64,000 nucleotides of DNA from Phaeodactylum tricornutum CCAP 1055/1. Taxonomy: Eukaryota > Bacillariophyta > Bacillariophyceae > Surirellales > Neidiaceae. The translations under genes and the position numbers were made by a program. This document shows, one piece after another, positions 5,387 through 57,802 of the stretch. Where the stretch lies: contig NC_011691.1 in NCBI RefSeq assembly GCF_000150955.2, forward strand, positions 372,001 through 436,000, read 5' to 3'. The notes beneath the pieces are model-generated. The model was not told the origin of the DNA and searched no databases. It was given only the letters and a program-made list of their open reading frames with translations. Every line of letters starts with the position of its first letter. Position 1 is the stretch's first letter.

Positions 5387-6304
5387 CCAAGAGAATATCT
5401 TCTTACTATCCAAACTGTGCGTCAGACGTTACTGGAGAGAATGGTAGCACCATCGATTGGTCTACGTCGACAAGCAATGTATCGTTCCACCATATGTGTA
5501 GGTAGAATGTTGCTTGGCTCCAAAAAAAACGAGTGTCAGAAGGCGCAGACATCGCGGGATGAACAATATTTGTGCGGCCTGGTGGGGTCTCCAAACGGAT
5601 TAGTCTTTGCTTTTGTCAGCACCGTCATTCTTTTGGATGACGGAAGCCTTTAGGAATATGCTGTGTGATGAGTTTGGAAAAGCTTTCGAATAGTCCCACT
5701 CGCACCCCAAATAATACCACAGAATCGAAAGTGGATCGGAAAGCTGCGACGCAGAAGCATGGCCCAGAAAGCGTTCTGGCTCAACTCGTGTGCGTTTTGA
5801 ATTGTCGCACGCTTCACGGTCAAATTCTATCTGTCCATCACCAGTACGATACACTTTAGATGGTCGATGACGAGTGAGAAGCGAAATCGTTGACTGTGTG
5901 AAGTCGAAGCGTCGGCCCGCATCGTTTACTGCTGTGTTTGCTCTCTTAACGTTCACCGTGAGAAAAAGATACCTGCAAATACCCAATAAGACTTTTCTAT
6001 CTAGTTCGACGCTGTACGACACAATCGCGAAGTATGACATTCTGCGGTCACGGCACTTCTCCTTCTTGGTTGTTCCCAAAAAGATTTAGCCAATGTGATT
6101 GGAGCAGGGCGAACCCGAACGACACGGAAAGCTACAGCAAAACGAGCCCAAGCGTGATGTGTATCCTTGCTCAGGAAGGAATTTCAAAAATGTCCATTGC
6201 GCGATCCTCGACTGGCGTTCTCCGGACTCGGAAAGCGCTCATACTTTCCAACTACATCCCCTTATTCCCAACTCTCTTCCTATACAGAAACACTGAGTAC
6301 AGCA
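5387..6304. other. Intergenic or decayed 5' part of the LRR gene
   Basis: Minus-strand open frames at 5406-5594 and 5600-6040 lie directly upstream of the broken LRR gene and could be decayed or spliced 5' parts of it, but they show no clear repeats. Nothing recognisable lies on the plus strand before the next start. Confidence 0.35.
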
Positions 6305-8365
6305 ATGTCCCCGACTCCGACACAGGCCCACGATGAAATGAGCGATACGCTACTCGAACTCGCTGAAGAGTTTCAAGCCCAAATCGAAATTAAGGACCGC
6401 AAGTATCGTCTCAAAACGTACAAGGACACGTTTGTGGGTAGCGAAGCGGTCGACTATCTTGTCTCGTCCGGAAAAGCTGCCACGCGTACCGAAGCTGTGT
6501 CCCTCGGTCAAGTTCTGCAGGTCAACTTTCACCTATTTGAGCACGTCACGCGCGATCACGACTTTGCCGACGACGGCCTTTTTTTCCGCTTCTTGACGGA
6601 CAACGAGCGCGGTGGATTGTCCCGGGATGAATCCGGGAATTCCCTTCGCTGGCAGAACTTTTTGGGCACCCCTGACGGTCTGACCAACCAGAACGGCCTC
6701 CAACCCTCCTTCCCCAAGAACGACATTCTCCCCGACAAGGACCAGCACGTTGTCAACCAAGTATGGCCCCTCGACGAATACAACCGCACTTTGCTGAATA
6801 ACGTGCACCCTCCGGGCTGGCGAGACCCTGCAGTCGCATCCGACAAGGACTTGTACTACGACATGGTTGTTATCGGTGGGGGCACGGCCGGTCTCATCAC
6901 CGCTGCTGGTAGTGCAGGGGTTGGTGCCAAGGTTGCTTTGATTGAGGCCCACATGCTGGGTGGCGACTGTTTGAATGTCGGATGCGTGCCTAGCAAGACG
7001 ATTATTCATTCTGCCAATCTCGCTCACCAGGTCCAGAATCAAACACACTTGGCCGAAGCCGGAATTGCGGTAGAAGGCCACGTGACGGTTGATTTTGAAA
7101 AAGTCATGGAACGCGTCCGGAAAATTCGCAGTACAATCAGTCACCACGATTCAGCCGAACGCTACAGTAAGGAACTCGGAGTTGAAATTTACATTGGGTG
7201 GGCCATGTTTACGTCGGAACGCACGGTCGAGGTCAACGGCAAAACGCTGCACTTTAAAAAAGCGGCCATTGCAACGGGCGGATATCCAGTCCTTTTGCCA
7301 ATGCCGGGTCTTCAAGAAATCTATAAGAAAGCGCAAGATTCCGGCGCCGTCACCAACGAATCGCGGCCACAAGTCATGACTAACGAAACAGTATTCAATC
7401 TGACCAAACGTCCCGAAAATATGGTCGTTATTGGCGCCGGCGTGATTGGATTGGAACTGGCCCAAGCGTTGCAGCGCTTGGGAGTTGGGGTGACCGTGTT
7501 GGGCCGTTCTGGGAGAGTCCTTCCTAAAGAGGATGAAGACATGGGTCTAGTGGTCAAGAATCAAATGATTCAAGACGGAGTGGACTTTCGCTTGACAGTG
7601 CAAGACTACAAAAAAATTGAGCTCACCGGCAAAGTTCTCGAAAACGGGTATCCCGAGATGAAATTGACGCTTCAAGAAAAGGGCAATTACGAACCAACCG
7701 TTTTGTATTGCGACGCAGTTTTAATTGCTGCTGGGCGTGCTCCTAATGTTTCTGGTATGAATTTGGAAGCTGCCAAGGTTCAGTTTGACAAAAAAATGGG
7801 GGTGCACGTCAACGACAACCTCCAAACGTCGAATAAACGAATCTATGGTGTTGGTGATGTCTGTTCCGACTTCAAATTCACCCATGCAGCCGACTTTATG
7901 GCTAGGGCTGTGATTCGAAATGCGCTATTCTTCGGAAAAGAAAAAATGTCGGAACTACTTATTTCATATGCTACGTTTACAAGTCCCGAGATTGCCAGTG
8001 TTGGTCTCTACGAAGACGACTTGAAGGCCAAGAACATTGCCTTCCGAGTCTTTGAAAAGCATTTCAAGGACAACGACCGTGCCATTGCTGATGACGCTAC
8101 TGATGGATGGGTACGATTTCGGGTGAACGCCAAAACGGACAAAATTTTGGGAGCCAGTATTGTGGGAGTTGGCGCGGGAAATATGATTTCGGAAGTTACG
8201 CTTGCCATGCAGTCGGCAACTGGACTAGGATCACTGGCCAATGTAATTCATCCGTACCCAACTACCGCTGAAGTCCTTCGCCAGTCTGGCGATCTCTACA
8301 ACAAGACCAAATTGACAATGACGGCGAAAAAGATTCTCCGTGGTGTCGTCAAGCTGCAACGTTAA
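6305..8365 (+). CDS. DEP-domain fused to FAD/NAD(P) disulfide oxidoreductase (MerA/RclA-like)
   Basis: A single exon encodes 686 residues from ATG 6305. Residues about 15-95 form a DEP domain (KDTFVGSEAVDYLVSSG, then LFEHVTRDHDFADDGLFFRF), a fold usually found in signalling proteins. The rest is a class I pyridine nucleotide-disulfide oxidoreductase: FAD-binding GGGTAG near 187, redox-active pair C222/C227 in GGDCLNVGCVPSK, NAD(P)-binding GAGVIGLE near 376, and the dimerisation domain with HPYPTTAE (His649, Glu656). It resembles mercuric-reductase-like proteins such as cyanobacterial Slr1849 and RclA more than lipoamide dehydrogenase. It lacks both an N-terminal metal-binding domain and the C-terminal Cys pair of true mercuric reductase, so Hg(II) reduction is unlikely. 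The substrate is unknown. The frame is open upstream but has no earlier ATG. Confidence 0.85.
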   Translation: MSPTPTQAHDEMSDTLLELAEEFQAQIEIKDRKYRLKTYKDTFVGSEAVDYLVSSGKAATRTEAVSLGQVLQVNFHLFEHVTRDHDFADDGLFFRFLTDNERGGLSRDESGNSLRWQNFLGTPDGLTNQNGLQPSFPKNDILPDKDQHVVNQVWPLDEYNRTLLNNVHPPGWRDPAVASDKDLYYDMVVIGGGTAGLITAAGSAGVGAKVALIEAHMLGGDCLNVGCVPSKTIIHSANLAHQVQNQTHLAEAGIAVEGHVTVDFEKVMERVRKIRSTISHHDSAERYSKELGVEIYIGWAMFTSERTVEVNGKTLHFKKAAIATGGYPVLLPMPGLQEIYKKAQDSGAVTNESRPQVMTNETVFNLTKRPENMVVIGAGVIGLELAQALQRLGVGVTVLGRSGRVLPKEDEDMGLVVKNQMIQDGVDFRLTVQDYKKIELTGKVLENGYPEMKLTLQEKGNYEPTVLYCDAVLIAAGRAPNVSGMNLEAAKVQFDKKMGVHVNDNLQTSNKRIYGVGDVCSDFKFTHAADFMARAVIRNALFFGKEKMSELLISYATFTSPEIASVGLYEDDLKAKNIAFRVFEKHFKDNDRAIADDATDGWVRFRVNAKTDKILGASIVGVGAGNMISEVTLAMQSATGLGSLANVIHPYPTTAEVLRQSGDLYNKTKLTMTAKKILRGVVKLQR

Positions 8366-36200: not shown

Positions 36201-37428
36201 TCAGCCTTCTCTTGGAGCTCTCGTTGCGAGTACGCAGGGAACCCAGTGGGACACTGGATTGGATCTGAATCAAGTTCAAGCTGTAAATGACTACTGGGAA
36301 GAAGCCCGGGGATTGTACGCTCCGTTCGAATCTGGTCAGAAAACTGGTTCAAGCGATGTTTACGAACACGAAATGCCCGGTGGACAGTATACTAACCTTT
36401 TGTTTCAGAGCTCGCAGCTTGGGCTAACAGGGCAGTGGTCAAAAGTGAAGAAAGCCTATGCTGCTGCAAATCGACTGTTGGGCGACATTATTAAGGTGAC
36501 TTCTCTCGATTGCGTGCGTTACTTGAAAGCTGTTAGTTTTGGACTCACATGTTGATGTTGTTTCCAGGTGACACCGTCTTCTAAAGTAACCGGAGATCTG
36601 GCTCAGTTTCTTGTCGCCAATGACCTGACCGAGAAAGAGGTAATTGAAAAGGCTGAAACTCTTTCGTTCCCCAAATCTGTTGTTGAGTACTTCCAGGGTT
36701 ACCTGGGTATTCCACCATTTGGATTTCCGGAACCATTGCGCACGAAAGTTCTCAAGGGGCAGACAATCGAAGGCTATGAAGGTTTGACTTGCTTTGAGGG
36801 ACGTCCTGGTGCGGACTTGAAACCCATGGACATGGAAGCTGTGCGGTCAAAACTCGAGGAGAAATGGGGAGGCCAGGCTGACCATGGTGTACGTAACGTT
36901 GACATACTCAGTCATGCTATGTATCCCGCAGTGTTTGACGAGTACAAAGAGTTTAAGAATGTATTCGGCAAGCTCGACTTTCTGGATACCCGTACGTTCT
37001 TGACAGGAATGCGGGTTAATCAGGAACTACGAGTAGAAATTGAACCAGGCAAGCAACTAGTGATCAAACTGGACTCGGTCTCGGAACCGGACAAGGACGG
37101 CTTGGTAACGTTACAATTCGAGCTGAACGGTACCCTCCGTACCGTCCAAATCCAGGACAAGTCGGTGGACTCTGAAAAGGCCGTCCGGCCGAAAGCGATG
37201 GCCGCAGTTGCCGGTAGCGTTGGAGCTCCTATGCCGGGAGTTGTTGTGGAAACCAAAGTGAAGAAAGGCGATGTCGTCGAGCAAGGAGATCCATTACTCA
37301 GTTTGAGCGCCATGAAAATGGAGACCACGGTGTCGGCCCCAGTGAGTGGCACTGTCGTCTTTTTCGAAGTCACCGCTGGAGACCAAGTCGAAGCCGGAGA
37401 CCTGTTGGTCGAAATTGAGGACGAGTAA
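33287..37428 (+). CDS. PYC: Pyruvate carboxylase (probably mitochondrial)
   Basis: Five exons: 33287-33656, 33797-34567, 34676-35781, 35845-36495 and 36568-37428, separated by short GT-AG introns of 140, 108, 63 and 72 nt, give 1252 residues, normal for the single-chain enzyme. It carboxylates pyruvate to oxaloacetate using ATP and bicarbonate. Domains in order: biotin carboxylase ([43 protein letters not shown]), carboxyltransferase ([20 protein letters not shown]), then the biotin carrier with AMKM, biotinylated Lys1216. The first 70 residues are Arg-rich with few acidic residues, suggesting mitochondrial import. Diatoms have more than one pyruvate carboxylase in different compartments, so location is inferred. 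All junctions restore conserved sequence. Confidence 0.95.
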
Positions 37429-41389: not shown

Positions 41390-42727
41390 ATGGCAACAAC
41401 CATGGCGTCGTCCCTTCAAGACGAATCGGCCCTGGAAGCAGAAATTCATAAACTGGAACAAGAGATTGAGAAAAAACGCCTCGAAGAACAGATATCTCTG
41501 TTGGAAATGCAACTCCATCGGGCCAAGCCTGAGGCGCAGCGCCCGAACGCACCATCCAACCCATCGGTGGTAGGACAATCTACCTCCACTTCTCGAACTT
41601 CCAGTCCCCGCTCGCTGGAACATATGCTTCCCACCCAAAACGTCAGTTGGTCTGGGGCCAACGGACAAAGTCCAGAAGACGACAGTATTATCGCGTTGGC
41701 GACTCAAGATTCCGAAGGCGTGGAATACGACGAGGAAGACTATGACGAAGAAGAATGCGACGAAAATGAGTACGAGGAAGTGTTCGAAGAATTCGTCGAG
41801 TACGTTACCGACGACGAAGAAGAAGAAGTTGGAGAGCAACCTCTCGAAAGCGTTGAAGAATACGAAGAGGAAGAGGAAATCCAACAAGCCCCGGTTTCAC
41901 CCTCCCGAGCTCCTCCTCGTCAGTGGCCTCCTCCGGCACGTCCAGTGAACGACGAGCATGTAGTTCAATACGTGGCACCAAAAAAGAACACAGAAGCTCC
42001 CGAAGAACCGAAGCAAGTTGCCAAGCCTCGAAAGAAGTGGGTGCCCTTGAGTCAACGGGATCCCAAAAAGTACCAAGCAGCCAAAGAAGCAACCCCTACA
42101 CCTCCCAAGTCACCAGGACTGCCCGCTTTGCCGTTCACGCGACGTAAGCTCCCCGACGTTACGACGTCGCCTCCCGGTGAGGAAACAGTTTGGGAACAAC
42201 TGTTGGGTCCCAAACTCATTGTCAATGAAAAGTTGGTCAAATGCACAACCAACTGTGCTGCTCAGGGACAAGAACTTATTCTGCTCCTGTTTGGCGCCAA
42301 GTGGCGTGCAGAATGCAAGATCTTCTACCCACTCATGATCGACTTCTTCAAACTAATGGCTCACCAGCACAAAATGGAATGCGTGTACATCTCGAATGAT
42401 CGTACCTTGATGGAGTTTAAGGATATTTTTGTCAAAATGCCCTTTTTAAGTTTGCCAACAGGTACGGTGGAAATCAAGAATATCTTGGCGCAACGACTGA
42501 AAGTGAACGACTTGCCTGTATTGGTCGTCATGACCGCCGACGGTCGTGTCATCACAACGGAAGGATACCGCATGGTGGCAGCCCTGGAGCGTCGGAACGA
42601 GGACCAGGCTAACAAACTGGTTGATGTCTGGAAAAAGGCGCAGACGTACAACATCGATCAAGTACCAGCCGATACCAGTCTCAAACATGGCAATTTGGCG
42701 CGGGGAACAGTCTACTGGCAAGCATAA
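41390..42727 (+). CDS. Thioredoxin-like (nucleoredoxin-type) protein with altered active site
   Basis: 445 residues from ATG 41390. The N-terminus is a short coiled coil (EAEIHKLEQEIEKKRLEEQI), then a Ser/Pro-rich stretch and a strongly acidic region (about 115-165, many EEDYDEEE-type runs), then a basic linker. The C-terminal 180 residues form a thioredoxin-like domain of nucleoredoxin/tryparedoxin type: LILLLFGAKWRAECKIFYPL and VNDLPVLVVMTADGRVITTEG with the cis-Pro. The usual WCxxC motif is WRAEC, so only one active-site Cys remains. It could act as a monothiol enzyme or only bind partners. No targeting signal, so a cytosolic or nuclear location is likely. Confidence 0.75.
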   Translation: MATTMASSLQDESALEAEIHKLEQEIEKKRLEEQISLLEMQLHRAKPEAQRPNAPSNPSVVGQSTSTSRTSSPRSLEHMLPTQNVSWSGANGQSPEDDSIIALATQDSEGVEYDEEDYDEEECDENEYEEVFEEFVEYVTDDEEEEVGEQPLESVEEYEEEEEIQQAPVSPSRAPPRQWPPPARPVNDEHVVQYVAPKKNTEAPEEPKQVAKPRKKWVPLSQRDPKKYQAAKEATPTPPKSPGLPALPFTRRKLPDVTTSPPGEETVWEQLLGPKLIVNEKLVKCTTNCAAQGQELILLLFGAKWRAECKIFYPLMIDFFKLMAHQHKMECVYISNDRTLMEFKDIFVKMPFLSLPTGTVEIKNILAQRLKVNDLPVLVVMTADGRVITTEGYRMVAALERRNEDQANKLVDVWKKAQTYNIDQVPADTSLKHGNLARGTVYWQA

Positions 42728-43454
42728 GATACGACAGAACTAACTTTATACAAGGCGACCTCGAAAGTCGCTTAATTGTTATAGTGCGGCTTGTGTTTTC
42801 CCTAGTAGACTCCTCCCTTGGGCGTAGCATACGTAGCGCTCTTTGTCTCTCGCATGACTCTCTTGTGTTAGCAAGAGACGGAATCTATCATCTTTCAATT
42901 TCTACCTTTTTAGATGACATCGCACGATTCCGTCCACCTCCAAAATGAAGCTGCTATTACAAGTTGCCAGACAGTATATGGCAGGCTGAATTTGGATGTT
43001 CCTTGAGCGTGTAAGTGCACACTGATGATATACAAAACTACATGGCCTTATGGAATCCGGCTCGAAGGCACAACAAGCTCGTTTCCAATCAGCAAGAATG
43101 CGAGAATGGCGTCGAACGCAGTACTGTATCCAGAGATCTAGCACTTCAGTAAGCACATGACAGAGAATCATCCGGGAAACCGTCCATGGCACAGTTGGAC
43201 GATCACTCAAGCGGTAGGAACAATCGAAAACGTCACATCTTTAGTTTAACCGAATAAAATTTGATCATGGCCGTCGCAGTCGCGCAAGGGAAGTGTGCCA
43301 ATAATCCAGACGGATCGCTCTTTTGCGTCCAGCCCCAAAGAGGCGGTACAGGCAAACGAGTTCATTCTCTAGGAATCATTGCATTAGTTTCACAAACCCT
43401 CCGACCCGTGTGTTGTCACTCATTCATTCATTTATCCATCCAATTCACATTCTT
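42728..43454. other. Intergenic between convergent genes
   Basis: Shared 3' region. It contains the putative SECIS hairpin of the minus-strand DCC gene (separate entry); otherwise nothing recognised. Confidence 0.5.
43305..43374 (-). promoter_or_regulatory. Putative SECIS element
   Basis: Minus-strand hairpin about 90 nt after the DCC stop codon. Read 5' to 3': lower helix TCC-T-AGA (43374-43368) pairs with TCTGGA (43310-43305); an internal loop; ATGA (43365-43362) opposite CGAT (43317-43314), the positions of the SECIS quartet; then CTCGTTTGC (43360-43352) pairs with GCAAAAGAG (43326-43318), eight of nine pairs. The apical part is about 25 nt and has CC rather than a clear AA motif, and at a longer distance than usual. 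The architecture fits a SECIS, but the apical motif is not canonical. Confidence 0.4.
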
Positions 43455-44186
43455 CTAAAGGGAATGGTCTTCCGACCCCGACGCCGTCGCAGTGTCAAAG
43501 CCCCAAGCTGGATCCAGTGGTTCTTCGAGACCCAGAATCCGATCGCGGTAGGCTTCGAGTCGAGTGACATCGACAGGCCACCCCATGATTCGTCGAATTC
43601 CTTTCCAAATTGTTCCACGACGCTTGGTAAAGGCCCGGAACGCGGCATCCCGGATCATTGTCGGTACCAACCACAACCCGATCGGACCCAGGATATTGTA
43701 CGGGAATCCGAGATACGGTAGCATACGGAGTACCGCGGTGGAATCCCGGTGCGCCCCTTGCTCGTCCACCAAGATTCCCGTAGAACGGTCCGCCGGCATG
43801 CCGTACGCCCGGCACGTGTCTTGGCCCAGTGTGGACTGCATCGGACTAAAGCGCAAATGATCCCACTCGTCCCGATCCAGACAAAACTGGACGGTAAACT
43901 TTCACACACCGCATCCGCCGTCGTAAAAGAAAATTGCGCGTGGTTGTTGACGTACATTCACGCCGAGACGGTCCGTGAACGATGAGCGTAACGACGAACC
44001 CGACGCTCCCGGACGATGGCTCCTCACGCTCCGTCTACGTTGAAGGCGGCTAGTTCGAGCGACAAAGACGTACTCAATACGGGGGAAGCCGAGCACTGCA
44101 GACATGGACAAAAGAGAGTGAAATAATAACAGTAGTCGAGAAGCCAAAGTGGTTGTTGTTGTACGGGTTTGGTTCCCCAGTCTCAT
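43455..44186 (-). CDS. DCC-family thiol-disulfide oxidoreductase, predicted selenoprotein
   Basis: From ATG 44186 to the TAG at 43455 the frame encodes 243 residues if the single internal TGA (43904-43902) is read as selenocysteine. The sequence before it is RAIFFYDGGCGV and after it KFTVQFCLDRDEWDHLRFSP, which is the DUF393/DCC core with the family's DxxCxxC motif. The TGA sits exactly at the second Cys, giving Cys92-x-x-Sec95. DCC proteins are thioredoxin-fold redox enzymes of largely unknown substrate. An intron cannot explain the stop: homology is continuous on both sides. The N-terminus has a hydrophobic core (ASRLLLLFHSLLSMSAVLG) followed by F, which suggests a plastid or secretory route. 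If TGA were a real stop, a truncated 94-residue product without the domain would result. Confidence 0.75.
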
Positions 44187-50037: not shown

Positions 50038-53000
50038 TTAATCTCGTTCGTAATTAAGAATAGGAGACAGCCATCGTTCGCAGAGTGCCAAATCCATCTG
50101 TTTGCGTGACGCGTAATTCGTTACCTGATCTTTACCCACTTGGCCCACGGCAAAGTACTCGGACTCGGGGTGCGCAAAGACCAACGCCGAAACGGACGAC
50201 GCCGGCATCATGCTCAGCGATTCCGACAATTCAATGCCGGCCAGTTCCTGCGCCTGCAGGAGATTCCACATTGTGCGTTTTTCCGTATGGTCCGGCTGCG
50301 ACGGGTAACCCGGAGCGGGGCGAATACCGTCGTATTTCACCTTGAGCAAATCGGACTCGTTCAATTGTTCGCCAGCCGCGTATCCCCAGAGATCCAGACG
50401 CATCTCGCGGTGCACGTACTCGGCAAACGCCTCGACGAAACGATCCGCCAAAGCTTGTGCCATAATCTTGGAATAGTCGTCGTTCTCGGATTCGAACTTC
50501 TTCACTAGAGCGTCACAACCAAAACAAGAAACAGCAAACATACCCAAGTGATCCTTGTAACCCGCGGGGGCGACAAAGTCGGCTTGGGACAAATACGGGT
50601 CGTCGGACTCCTTCTCGGCTTGCTGGCGCAACATACAGAACGTAGTCGACACATTTCCTGATTCGCGATCGGCTTCCGTCTCATAAACGTGCACATCCTC
50701 GCCATCCTCACTACGGTTCGCCGGGAAGATACCGACAACTCCCTTCAACGTCATGGAGCCGTCCTCGCAGATTTGATTCAGCATCGTCTGCGCATCATGG
50801 AAAAGTTTCTTGGCTTCGCCTCCGACCGCTTCGTCGTTAAAAATCTTGGGATAGCCTCGATTCGGGTATCGACCACGCAGCTCCCACGTCTGAAAGAATG
50901 GATTCCAATCAATGTAAGGAACAACCGCCGAAATCTTGACCGTATCAATGACGGTTATGCCGATTTTGTTTGGAGTGTCTGCAACCGGTGATTGATCAAA
51001 GTTGATCGTAATCTTTTGCTCCTTGGCCTTCTCAAAAGTTAAAAAGTTGCGGTCCTCGAGCCCTGCATAGTAATCTTCACGCATTTCTTCGTACTCCTCC
51101 ATAATATCCTCCACAAACTCTCCCTTGTTCTCTCCCAAAAGAGAGTTGACCACCGTTACGGAACGAGACGCATCCAGAACATGAATTGTTGGGTGCTCGG
51201 GGGTTGTGTAGCTCGGAGCAATCTTCACGGATGTGTGCATCTTGGAAGTAGTGGCGCCACCAATCAGCAAGGGTTGCTTGAAACCTTGCTTGGACATTTC
51301 TTTGGCAACATCAACCATCTCGTCCAAGGAAGGAGTAATTAATCCAGAGAGACCAATCACATCGACATTGTATTCTTTAGCCTTGGCGAGAATTTTTTCA
51401 CACGAGCACATTACACCAATGTCGTAAACTTTATAGTTGTTGCATCCAAGGACAACAGCGACGATATTCTTTCCAATGTCATGAACATCTCCCTTGACTG
51501 TGGCCATCAGCACTTTGCCAGCGTAATTCGAGTCGTCATCAGGATCAACGTCATCTGGATCCAAGCCAGCCGCAATCATATTTTCCCTCTTCTCTGCATC
51601 CATAAACGGTAACAGATAGGCGACTGCCTTTTTCATGACCCGTGCAGACTTGATGACTTGTGGTAGAAACATCTTTCCCGCTCCAAACAAGTCCCCGACA
51701 ACGTTCATGCCGTCCATTAAGGGTCCCTCAATTACATCTAGTGGCTTGGTGGCCAACACGCGAGCTTCTTCGACGTCTGAATCGACAAATTCGGAAATAC
51801 CGTTCACCAATGAATGCTCCAGTCGCTTGGACGGTTCAAGATCGCGCCAGGAAGACTTTTTGACCTCGTCCACAACTCCACCTTTCTTCCGAGCCTCCAT
51901 GGCATCACGCTCCTTTTGCGTGAGCAAGAGCATAGTATCAGTAGCCTCCGGATTTTTATTGAATACAAGGTTTTCAGAAGCAATGCGAAGCTCGGGTTCA
52001 ACCTCGCTGATTGCCAGCATTTCGGCGGAGTTCACGATGCCAACATCCATGCCCGACTCGGTAATAGCATGGTGCAAGAACACCGCGTGGATCGATTCCC
52101 GGATCTTCGTCACACCCCGGAAGCCAAACGACAAGTTCGAGATACCCCCACTAATCTTCACGTACGGACACTCCTCCTTGATGCGCTTCACAGAGTTGAT
52201 AAAATCCACACCGTAGTTCGCGTGCTCTTCCATACCCGTACCGATCGTCAGTACGTTCGGGTCGAACACAATGTCCTCCGGTGGGAAACCCACCTTGTTC
52301 ACCAGAACGTCGTACGACCGCTTGCAGATACGGATCTTCTCGTCTTCCGTGGCCGCTTGACCCTGCTCGTCAAAGGCCATGACAACCACCGCGGCGCCGT
52401 GCTTCTTCAGCAACGTGGCCTGCTCCATGAACAGCTCCTCGCCCACCTTGAGCGAAATCGAGTTCACAATGCACTTGCCCTGACACCACTTGAGACCCGC
52501 CATGACAATGTCAAACTTGGACGCGTCCAGCATGAACGGCACCTTGGCAATCTCCGGCTCCGTCACCGCGATCTTCACAAACTTTTGCATCGCCGCTAGG
52601 CCATCCAGCATACCGTCGTCCACGTTGATGTCGATCACGTGCGCGCCGTCCTCCACCTGCTGCTTCGCAATGTCCATGGCCGCGCCGTAATCGCCCTTCA
52701 TCATGAGCTTTTTGAACTTGATCGACCCGGCTATGTTACACCGCTCGCCCACGTTCAGAAACGGCAAACCCAGCTGGTTGTGCACGTCCTCCACCTTCAG
52801 GTCCTCCAGCCCCGACAGCCACATCTTGGGCCGGCCCACATCCGGCAGCTTGCGGGGCTGGTACCGCTCTGCCGTCTCGCGGATGGCCTTGATGTGCGGC
52901 GGCGTGGACCCGCAGCACCCTCCGACCATGTTCAACCAGCCGTTCTCGAAAAACACCTCGTTCTCGCGCGCCATGTCTTCCGGCGTGTCGTCGTACCCGC

Positions 53001-56000
53001 CCATGGCGTTGGGCAGACCCGCGTTCGAGTACACGTGCACAAAACACTCGGCCGCCTTGCTCAAGCGCTCCACAAAGGGTACCATGTGCTTGGCGCCCAA
53101 CGCACAGTTCAAGCCCACACACATCGGCTTGGCGTGCCGGATCGAAACGTAAAAAGCCTCGCCCGTCTGTCCCGACAGTGTACGACCCGACTGGTCCACC
53201 AGTGTGCCACTCACAAACACGGGAATGTCCAACCCGCTAAACTCCAAAAACTCTCCGATCGCGTACAACGCCGCCTTGGCGTTCAGCGTGTCGAAGATGG
53301 TCTCCACCATTAGCACGTCAGCACCACCGTCCACCAGACCCACCACCTGCTCCAGGTACGTCTCTACCAGCTCGTCAAACGTCACGTTGCGCGCCGCGGG
53401 GTCCTCCACCGACGGCGAGATCGAACACGTACGATTCGTGGGTCCAATGGCTCCCACCACGAAACGCGGCTTACTAGGGTCTTTGGCCGTCACTTCATCG
53501 CAGGCCTCCCGCGCCAACCGAGCGCCCACGTAGTTCAGCTCGTACGCGTACGCTTCCATCTGGTAGTCCGCCATGGCAATGGTGGTGGAGGAAAACGTGT
53601 TGGTCCCAATCATGTTGCTGCCGCCCTCTTCCAGGTACTGCATGTAGATACCCTTGATGATGTGGGGCTGCGAGATGCTGAGCATGTCGTTGTTGCCCTT
53701 GACGGCGCAGTTCCAGTCGCGGAATCGCTCGCCCCGGTACTCTTCCTCGTCTAGTCGGTTCTTCTTGGCGTAGTTCTGGATCATGGTGCCCATGGCCCCG
53801 TCGTAAATGGCAATCTGCGACGTAAACAGCTTCGTGATGTAGGTCCGCAGACTGTCGCGACCCCGCACATAGTACGGAAAGTCCGTGGGGTACAGGTCCA
53901 CCGGTTGTGGGTAGTCAATGTCGTTCCGCTGCGCGGGGGACAGGGTACTGCGACTACGGATTTCTTGGATCCGCTCGTGCGTGAGAGTCGTATTGACGTA
54001 GGGATTGGGCACGTGATTGCGAGCGGCGGCGGAAGTCGGCAGGGGCGGTTCCGTAGCGGGCTTGGGGGGAATCTTGTCGTAGTCAAACTCGACCCGTGGA
54101 AGATTCGGAAGCTTGCCTCGCGGTTTACGCGGCGGGGGCAAGCCTTTCTTTTTGGCTTCCAGGACGGATCGCTCGAAGTTTGTACGTTCAAGCATATCAT
54201 CTGTGGCATCGGGAGTCTTATTGAATACAAGGTTTTCGCACAAAAGCTTCATATCGGGTTCCAAGTCATCAACGGACAGTAGCTCGTGCGAGTTCACGAT
54301 GCCAACATCCATGCCCGACTCGGTAATAGCGTGGTGCAAGAACACCGCGTGGATCGATTCCCGGATCTTCGTCACACCCCGGAAGCCAAACGACAAGTTC
54401 GAGATACCCCCACTAATCTTCACGTACGGACACTCCTCCTTGATGCGCTTCACAGAATTGATAAAATCCACACCGTAGTTCGCGTGCTCTTCCATACCCG
54501 TACCAATCGTCAGTACGTTCGGGTCGAACACAATGTCCTCCGGTGGGAAACCCACCTTGTTCACCAGAACGTCGTACGACCGCTTGCAGATACGGATCTT
54601 CTCGTCTTCCGTGGCCGCTTGACCCTGCTCATCAAAGGCCATGACAACCACCGCGGCGCCGTGCTTCTTCAGCAACGTGGCCTGCTCCATAAACAGCTCC
54701 TCGCCCACCTTGAGCGAAATCGAGTTCACAATGCACTTGCCCTGACACCACTTGAGACCCGCCATGACAATGTCAAACTTGGACGCGTCCAGCATGAACG
54801 GCACCTTGGCAATCTCCGGTTCCGTCACCGCGATCTTCACAAACTTTTGCATCGCCGCTAGGCCATCCAGCATACCGTCGTCCACGTTGATGTCGATCAC
54901 GTGCGCGCCGTCCTCCACCTGCTGCTTCGCAATGTCCATGGCCGCGCCGTAATCGCCCTTCATCATGAGCTTTTTGAACTTGATCGACCCGGCTATGTTG
55001 CACCGCTCGCCCACGTTCAGAAACGGCAAACCCAGCTGGTTGTGCACGTCCTCCACCTTCAGGTCCTCCAGCCCCGACAGCCACATCTTGGGCCGGCCCA
55101 CATCCGGCAGCTTGCGGGGCTGGTACCGCTCTGCCGTCTCGCGGATGGCCTTGATGTGCGGCGGCGTGGACCCGCAGCACCCTCCGACCATGTTCAACCA
55201 GCCGTTCTCGAAAAACACCTCGTTCTCGCGCGCCATGTCTTCCGGCGTGTCGTCGTACCCGCCCATGGCGTTGGGCAGACCCGCGTTCGAGTACACGTGC
55301 ACAAAACACTCGGCCGCCTTGCTCAAGCGCTCCACAAAGGGTACCATGTGCTTGGCGCCCAACGCACAGTTCAAGCCCACACACATCGGCTTGGCGTGCC
55401 GGATCGAAACGTAAAAGGCCTCGCCCGTCTGTCCCGACAGTGTACGACCCGACTGGTCCACCAGTGTGCCGCTCACAAACACGGGAATGTCCAACCCGCT
55501 AAACTCCAGAAACTCTCCGATCGCGTACAACGCCGCCTTGGCGTTCAACGTGTCGAAGATGGTCTCCACCATGAGCACGTCGGCACCGCCGTCCACCAGA
55601 CCCACCACCTGCTCCAGGTACGTCTCTACCAGCTCGTCAAACGTCACGTTGCGTGCCGCGGGGTCCTCCACCGACGGCGAGATCGAACACGTACGATTCG
55701 TGGGTCCAATGGCTCCCACCACGAAACGCGGCTTACTAGGGTCTTTGGCCGTCACTTCATCGCAGGCCTCCCGCGCCAACCGAGCGCCCACGTAGTTCAG
55801 CTCGTACGCGTACGCTTCCATCTGGTAGTCCGCCATAGCAATGGTGGTGGAGGAAAACGTGTTGGTCCCAATCATGTTGCTGCCGCCCTCTTCCAGGTAC
55901 TGCATGTAGATACCCTTGATGATGTGGGGCTGCGAGATGCTGAGCATGTCGTTGTTGCCCTTGACGGCGCAGTTCCAGTCGCGGAATCGCTCGCCCCGGT

Positions 56001-56388
56001 ACTCTTCCTCGTCTAGTCGGTTCTTCTTGGCGTAGTTCTGGATCATGGTGCCCATGGCCCCGTCGTAAATGGCAATCTGCGACGTAAACAGCTTCGTGAT
56101 GTAGGTCCGCAGACTGTCGCGACCCCGCACATAGTACGGAAAGTCCGTGGGGTACAGGTCCACCGGTTGTGGGTAGTCAATGTCGTTCCGCTGCGCGGGG
56201 GTCAGGGTACTGCGATTACGGATTTCTTGGATCCGGTCGTGCGTGAGAGTCGTATTGACGTAGGGATTGGGCACGTGATTGCGAGCGGCGGCGGAAGTCG
56301 GCAGGGGCGGTTCCGTTGCAGGCTTGGGGGGAATCTTGTCGTAGTCAAACTCGACCCGGGGGTAGAGTTTCGTCGGAGGATTCGGCAT
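50038..56388 (-). CDS. METH: Cobalamin-dependent methionine synthase with internal duplication
   Basis: A single exon encodes 2116 residues from ATG 56388; the usual length is about 1230. The enzyme transfers methyl from methyltetrahydrofolate via cobalamin to homocysteine. Residues 11-700 hold the homocysteine domain ([11 protein letters not shown]; zinc ligands in NCALG and [10 protein letters not shown]) and the pterin domain ([11 protein letters not shown]...). A linker (701-764) follows, and residues 765-1454 repeat both domains almost exactly. Only one cobalamin module follows, with DxHxxG as DVHDIG (Asp1634, His1636, Gly1639), and one activation domain ([29 protein letters not shown]) for reductive methylation. 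Both substrate modules keep their key residues. The duplication is described under the repeat entry. Whether both modules are active is unknown. Confidence 0.93.
52028..56358. repeat. Two 2069-bp direct repeats inside METH
   Basis: 52028-54096 and 54290-56358 are direct copies with an offset of 2262 bp (754 codons). I counted roughly 20 differences, mostly at third codon positions, so identity is about 99%. The boundaries are sharp: GAGTTCACGATGCC at the low-coordinate end and GACCCG at the other. The 193 bp between them encode a linker that is only loosely similar to the segment following the second copy. Confidence 0.95.
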
Positions 56389-57802
56389 CGTTGCCAACAC
56401 ACGCAGCCCGTCTTCTTTGTCACACAAAAGGAGCTAAGAGTAGGAACAAAAGAACAATTGGAGAGCGAGTGAGTGAGTGAGGACGTTCGGGTTGTATGTA
56501 AGCTTCCACACGATGACCTGCCAGTCGTCACAAGAATGTTTCTGCGAATTCTGGATCCACAAGTCTACCAAGGAACGTTAGCATTATGGGACCAATTTGG
56601 AAGCAATCCCAAGAAGGAACTGCGTAATGCCAACACGAGCCGACGTGTCTTACATTTACTACAAAACGAAAAGCTATTCTTACCGAAAGGAACTGGAATA
56701 GAGAGAGTCAGTCTATCGAACCTAACTATCTATGTGGTACCGATGATTTTGGTTCCGAGGAGTGCTGGAGGAAACGGAATGCCGTTGTTGTTGTTGTCCC
56801 GTTCACGCAAAAATGCCCGTCTGCCGGGCGCTGGCCAGTCGCGGCACCGTCCCCACTGCGCGCACGGTCCCAACCGGGTCCCTCAGTAACCCTCCCCTAA
56901 AATAGCGCACGTGCGGATTCGCTGCGGCGTCGCACGATGGAACGTGCCAATGGACACGGAGACGAAACACCCCGAGGCACGGACAATCGACTTTTCGAAT
57001 CGTACTCCGGCGGGAATCGGTTGGCGCGACCGACGAGACTAGCTACTAGAGATAGGTAGTTGCAGAGTACCACGTATGTCCGATATACTGTTTGAGATAC
57101 AGTTTCTGGAATATATACAACAAGCAATCTATCCGACAATCTCGGCAACATAAGTATTTCAGGATTTTCATACTTGGATCGGATTGCGAGGTATCGTTTT
57201 TCGGAACTCTCGTGTACAGAGAAGTTCTCCGACGCGGAAATAACCAAAACGGCCCCGCAACCCAAAAAAGTAGCTAAATCGCGCCAGAGCAAAGAATCCT
57301 ATAGTTGGAATCAATGACATCCAGGACCTCATCAACTTGCACGCCTGTACAAGGAGTCAAATACTGTTTCATTTCAAACACTTATGGACTTGTTTCTCGC
57401 TCCAATGTCCCGTCCCGTTCGTAATCCACCGTATGACTTTTGCTTCGGTGGTCCAAATTGTGCCATTCTTTTCTTCCAAAAGGCCAAAACTGCATGCCTT
57501 TGCAGGTACTCCTGCTTGTGGATGAGGTCTGCCGATACTTATGCCTCGAGTCAATGAGCCCTTGCCTACTGCGAGAGTAGATAGGTAGTATTCCCTTCTT
57601 GCTGTGCGACTGACTGTGAACGCCGTATCTGCTGAAACTGCATCGCGGCAGATGAAAAAACTACTTTTATTTTTTTGGGAAAAGAAAGATATTTGGCAAT
57701 ACAAACATTTCGACGTGGACAGTGCTTTGGTTGGCAACCACTCTTGCATGGGTGCCTCGCAATTCTGCCACCGATTTGGATTGGATCGATGATAGTAGTT
57801 GA
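56389..57802. other. Intergenic
   Basis: No gene recognised. It contains a GTGA microsatellite near 56466-56482 in the leader of METH. Several overlapping frames without family resemblance follow. Confidence 0.45.

Follow-up and report, generated by a model that had tools for sequence, protein, structure and literature searches.

Does a TGA codon that interrupts the reading frame of a redox protein at a catalytic cysteine mark a stop, or is it read as selenocysteine (Sec)? The question is raised by a gene in the window, that is, the whole 64,000-nucleotide stretch of Phaeodactylum tricornutum DNA analyzed here (contig NC_011691.1, positions 372,001 to 436,000; position 1 is its first letter). 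A preliminary description had put the gene forward as a candidate selenoprotein of the DCC family with a CxxU active site. This proposal is supported by the Cys that homologues carry at the site, by a read-through product that outscores 198 splice variants, by a SECIS-like hairpin behind the gene, and by two bacterial DCC genes that carry TGA. In our judgment Sec is the best reading of the TGA, and the gene most likely encodes a genuine selenoprotein from a family so far unlisted, with a probability of about 0.75.

The reading frame and its single TGA

The frame starts with an ATG at position 44186 and closes with a TAG that ends at 43455, and the TGA is its sole internal stop (Table 1). PF04134 (DCC1-like) covers residues 87-193 in one uninterrupted match across codon 95 (E 2.6e-17) with a bit score of 64.5, above the curated cut-off of 27.8; comparison of the same protein with NCBIfam returned no family. 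The active-site motif reads D89-GG-C92-GV-TGA, with D89 and C92 present, and the DxxCxxC of PF04134 is complete only if the TGA is read as Sec or Cys. In a first alignment with six homologues, all six have Cys, the second of DGxCxxC, at the column of the TGA, and no gap intervenes. The frame, the Pfam match, and the alignment thus confirm what had been claimed, a 243-codon frame broken by one TGA at the second Cys with domain sequence on both sides. An in-frame TGA where homologues have Cys, with the domain conserved on either side of it, is one mark of a eukaryotic selenoprotein, and the gene shows it. The window protein shares with the PF04134 (DUF393) family the DGxCxxC site and the order of conserved residues; it departs from the family in that TGA takes the place of the second Cys codon and in that the protein is lengthened by a presequence at the N-terminus and an extension at the C-terminus.

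Table 1. Features of the DCC gene and its 3′ region, in window positions
Feature	Position	Strand	Remark
DCC-domain protein CDS	44186..43455	minus	243 codons + TAG, single in-frame TGA
In-frame TGA, codon 95	43904..43902	minus	proposed Sec, second position of CxxU; Cys in homologues
TGC, codon 92, first active-site Cys	43911..43913	minus	homologue comparison
DCC1-like domain PF04134, residues 87-193	43608..43928	minus	Pfam match
N-terminal hydrophobic segment, residues 1-33	44088..44186	minus	ends SAVLG before FP; possible signal peptide
SECIS-like hairpin, 3′ region	43300..43380	minus	helix I, ATGA...GA core, helix II, mini-stem
ATGA, 5′ side of proposed quartet	43362..43365	minus	90 nt beyond stop-codon end
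CGAT, 3′ side of proposed quartet	43314..43317	minus	folding

The comparison was extended to 89 loci, comprising 80 from one scan together with L001 to L009, of which L009 duplicates L001. Homologues lacking Cys at the TGA column, named in the preliminary description as evidence against Sec, were not met with: Cys is found in 89/89, a count that retains some bias, as the 80 scan loci were picked from 434 relatives for being the most similar to a query with Cys at the site. The scan used two patterns, one including the second Cys and the other omitting it. Seventy-four of the 80 scan loci fit solely the pattern that omits the second Cys, and Cys is present at that position in all 74. When viral and prokaryotic contigs were scanned with nothing but the window protein as query, no relative appeared.

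The codon may instead be, or have been, TGC or TGT, converted to TGA by an assembly base error or by a real nonsense mutation, and the gene would then encode an ordinary CxxC DCC oxidoreductase or be newly dead. A single base change in either Cys codon suffices, but the position of the change counts against this explanation. Among the 242 codons other than the TGA, one base change could turn 25 into TGA and 61 into a stop of any kind, yet the sole lesion is on the catalytic Cys and no further stop has appeared. A run of 148 codons without a stop arose in 71 of 20,000 Markov sequences. Because there is just one TGA where 25 codons besides the site could have given one, and because so long an open run is rare, the placement appears to go beyond chance. 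We consider an error or a nonsense allele unlikely, and return to it below with the hairpin and the bacterial genes.

Seventeen double ORFs split by one TGA occur within the window, among which the Pfam comparison covered the DCC gene alone. An in-frame TGA is also found between two long ORFs at 36553 (plus strand); these ORFs presumably encode pyruvate carboxylase, and the TGA is perhaps within an intron. Two other ORFs of the window deserve mention. On the minus strand, 50038-56433 encodes a B12-dependent methionine synthase of 2131 amino acids in which the homocysteine- and pterin-binding half is tandemly duplicated; the repeats (51929-54096 and 54191-56358) are 97.5% identical and result either from a recent duplication or from the assembly itself. 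On the plus strand, a single ORF (6302-8362) joins a DEP domain to a pyridine nucleotide-disulfide oxidoreductase.

Reading through or splicing out

Against a family HMM built from 59 homologues, with the query excluded, the read-through protein scores 85.2 bits with Cys at the site and 78.5 bits with X. The part behind the TGA alone scores 65.9 bits and the part before it 0.5 bits, which is all that would remain of the family signal in the product of a standard annotation cutting the gene at the TGA. The in-frame codon score is a rough guide, with long ORFs from the window itself as its training set and non-coding sequence chosen by eye for contrast. It is 0.161 behind the TGA; the references are 0.30 ± 0.14 for the training ORFs and −0.38 ± 0.19 for presumed non-coding sequence, where the highest of 170 values is 0.35. 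Residues 60-94 score 0.10 in frame and residues 1-84 score −0.23, a non-coding-like value; we take residues 1-84 as a presequence of odd composition.

This low value would also suit a downstream translation start, which, like an intron around the TGA, would make recoding unnecessary. The preliminary description had seen no usable intron here. That claim was too strong: GT/GC-AG pairs exist, including a consensus-like GTACGT donor that defines a 57-nt in-frame intron ending right after the TGA. What stands is that the spliced forms score lower. The GTACGT form reaches 65.7 bits, and the best of 198 variants, generated by every GT/GC-AG removal that deletes the TGA and keeps at least 130 amino acids, reaches 68.7 bits versus 85.2 for read-through. 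Each of the 22 spliced variants listed loses either the strand with the YDGGC motif, by which the family is defined, or residues at the start of the first helix. An intron or a downstream start is improbable.

Read through with Cys placed at residue 95, the protein was modeled with AlphaFold from an alignment of 56 sequences (mean pLDDT 72.9, pTM 0.60). Ten-residue blocks of residues 81-200 average between 83 and 93, and those of residues 81-130 between 86 and 92. The model predicts a strand at 84-88 followed by a helix at 93-105, with C92 and residue 95 at the helix start, and the motif opens the first helix as in thioredoxin-like folds. Foldseek searches with this model gave no match at E 0.001 (best E 0.08), and among the matches listed Trx, Grx, PDI, and GST-type folds predominate. 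Sequence comparison with solved structures gave nothing meaningful (best E 0.85).

The N-terminal segment includes a predicted helix at residues 11-31, and the order along the chain is a hydrophobic helix, SAVLG-FP, and a basic stretch. We take this arrangement to resemble the bipartite plastid presequence of diatoms. Judged by its N-terminal sequence, the DCC protein is possibly imported into the plastid.

A candidate SECIS element behind the gene

The 3′ region of about 730 nt reaches to the next gene, a convergent plus-strand gene (41390-42727) whose product combines a Thioredoxin_8 domain with a long acidic stretch. Folded without constraints, a 96-nt piece of this region shows an 11-pair helix I and an open loop in which TGAA stands opposite CGAT. 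These are followed by helix II and by a mini-stem (GCCTC/GGGGC) that encloses a loop of 3 nt. The GA/GA core is unpaired, and the energies are −23.1 kcal/mol for the whole and −16.5 kcal/mol for the upper stem. This layout matches the type II SECIS plan as given in PMC11227280. The rule quoted from PMC2375036 is NTGA..AA/CC..GA, with 10-13 nt from NTGA to AA/CC and energies under −12.6 and −3.7. Measured against this rule, the core, the helices, and the energies agree, but CC follows ATGA after 9 or 15 nt, outside the spacing, and AA is absent there. With the 10-13 nt spacing enforced, nothing in the 3′ region passes the SECIS test. A comparison with Rfam found no SECIS family in 7 kb, where one unrelated match appeared (E 6), or in 131 bases. 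When all 730 nt are folded together, the upper stem survives, but a local hairpin, in which GATCC pairs with GGATT, covers the 3′ side of the core and takes the place of helix I.

Other candidates were set aside. A strict SECISearch-like pattern applied to the 2 kb past the stop marked 43210, which at −11.5 kcal/mol misses the limit for the whole structure, and 42219, 42055, and 41646, which are antisense to the neighboring gene; at 42219, in addition, GA does not directly follow helix II. A relaxed version of the pattern does start at 43365, but it selects a different GA and its constrained fold lacks the SECIS plan; the pairing reported here comes from the other folds.

How often would such a hairpin arise by chance? 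For an 80-nt stretch, the fold z-score is −1.39, and 17 of 200 shuffled sequences are equally stable. The published rule, when widened, matches in 30 of 400 random 3′ regions; on both strands of the window, nine start sites pass it, among which the hairpin is the most stable (−23.1; the next is −20.2). A generous published model scores as well in 132 of 1000 random regions and in 22 of 348 window pieces, and finds three start sites in the real region versus a mean of 2.2 in random ones. A rule drawn up after the hairpin had been seen gives five matches on both window strands and lower chance rates, which rest on this post hoc choice (3.7% of 300 random sequences, and about 1 in 300 if helix I must be strong). 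Depending on the rule, comparable hairpins are seen in 4 to 13% of random sequences.

We regard the hairpin as a plausible, atypical candidate SECIS that may have arisen by chance, and its atypical form is a main source of doubt about the Sec reading. Neither the loss of helix I in the long fold nor the low codon score of the presequence clearly alters our estimate for Sec. For an assembly error or a nonsense allele, the violated spacing rule is a point in favor, while the presence of a SECIS-like hairpin on the correct strand and in the correct place counts against it. That UGA is read as some other amino acid, through read-through or a changed code and independently of a SECIS, would suit an uncertain SECIS but is very improbable, given that the position is a redox Cys in homologues.

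Bacterial relatives and the reach of the family

The family was then compared in four bacterial groups, named after their first locus (L079 Planctomycetota, L011 Nitrospina, L061 KSB1, and L019 Acidobacteria). In the Planctomycetota group, 68 of 99 genomes have a family match, and one match carries stops, both of them TGA. In this gene (L126, at G107:C275:47400-48100; also L130), the motif reads DGV-TGA-NF-TGA-RR, so that both Cys codons are TGA. The other groups have a family match in 42/60, 26/59, and 56/119 genomes, with no internal stop in any. Over the 337 genomes of the four groups, TGA inside a family match thus occurs in just one, and a prokaryotic CxxU form of DCC was not found in any of the four sets (60, 99, 59, and 119 genomes). 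One weak match below the cut-off, in a set of four genomes, holds a TAG.

A search with the UxxU protein of G107 gave a match in 7 of 392 Planctomycetota-group genomes, the source genome included. Among these is a second UxxU gene (L132, G444:C108, match 300-638), 43-46% identical to the first and likewise with TGA at both Cys positions. A third relative, in G068 (46-47% identical), has Cys at both. selA is above the cut-off in G107, G444, and G068, and selB in G107, the sole genome compared for selB. Behind the second TGA, both UxxU genes share GTCGCCTGGGTCAGG, which forms a short hairpin in four of six predicted folds. Bacterial SECIS elements are placed about where this hairpin stands. Sec is the plain reading of these codons, because it is difficult to believe that two diverged genes should each have suffered nonsense mutations at exactly the two catalytic positions. 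On sequence grounds, L126 and L132 are apparently bacterial DCC selenoproteins.

These genes bear on the diatom protein in two ways. They resemble it in the DCC domain and in having TGA at the same active-site position, which argues against an error or a nonsense allele in the window. They differ in that both Cys codons are TGA, in their bacterial decoding, and in that L126 is only 21% identical to the window protein. Because the motifs differ and the identity is low, Sec probably arose separately in the window gene and in the bacteria. We lean, with less assurance than for the diatom gene itself, towards DCC as an undescribed selenoprotein family in which Sec was gained at least twice, as CxxU in an alga that uses selenium, where the protein would be plastidial and its decoding guided by an unusual CC-type SECIS, and as UxxU in Planctomycetota.

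No diatom DCC selenoprotein was known to the preliminary description, and this agrees with word searches of the open-licence literature, which found no paper on a DCC, DUF393, COG3011, PF04134, or YuxK selenoprotein. The word DCC is also absent from the accessible portions of PMC2398784, PMC13188914, PMC6627142, and PMC2375036. An algal selenoproteome survey lists 42 families, one of them named "Hypo"; its main text has no occurrence of DCC, DUF393, or thiol-disulfide and its abbreviation list no DCC family (PMC7539508). The DCC gene may be recorded under another name in the material of that survey, for example as "Hypo".

Selenoproteins of the SELENOW-like CxxU type have a thioredoxin-like fold and belong to a protein family other than DCC. 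SELENOW itself is listed with CxxU, and such eukaryotic proteins have Sec at the second position, as proposed here (PMC7539508). Within the DCC family, two proteins offer a plastid setting like that proposed for the window protein: Arabidopsis AT1G52590, tabulated among plastoglobule core proteins (PMC12587418), and Chlamydomonas CPLD1 (Cre03.g145587), tabulated as "PSII assembly (likely)" (PMC11313482). They are likened to it through their annotated DCC domain, by annotation alone, and differ in that the tables concerned mention no Sec for them. An apparent mention of CPLD1 in PMC9110296 is actually CPLD10.

The mechanism that we infer, from decoding and SECIS function to plastid location and catalytic role, would be as follows. 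The gene would encode a DCC thiol oxidoreductase with a thioredoxin fold. Its product may be imported into the plastid, and Sec would stand in for the second active-site Cys, giving CxxU. At codon 95, an atypical SECIS of the CC type, built on the type II plan with its ATGA 90 nt past the stop codon, would direct the eukaryotic Sec machinery to decode the UGA. For diatoms, the survey gives 20-44 selenoprotein genes (PMC7539508). A search for tRNA genes within the window found none. At the start of the first helix, C92 and U95 would form a selenenylsulfide upon oxidation, and this site would reduce or isomerize disulfides of partner proteins. In this scenario, the protein is a disulfide reductase or isomerase, perhaps plastidial, and Sec at the second site may make the enzyme faster and easier to rescue from over-oxidation.

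If the Sec reading is correct, the catalogue of selenoproteins would gain a family, and the rules by which such genes are found would be broadened by an atypical SECIS. With the UxxU genes of bacteria, the claim can be put to the test in a second, unrelated system. For the diatom, selenium chemistry may enter the plastid, beside proteins that are tied elsewhere to plastoglobules and to photosystem II assembly.
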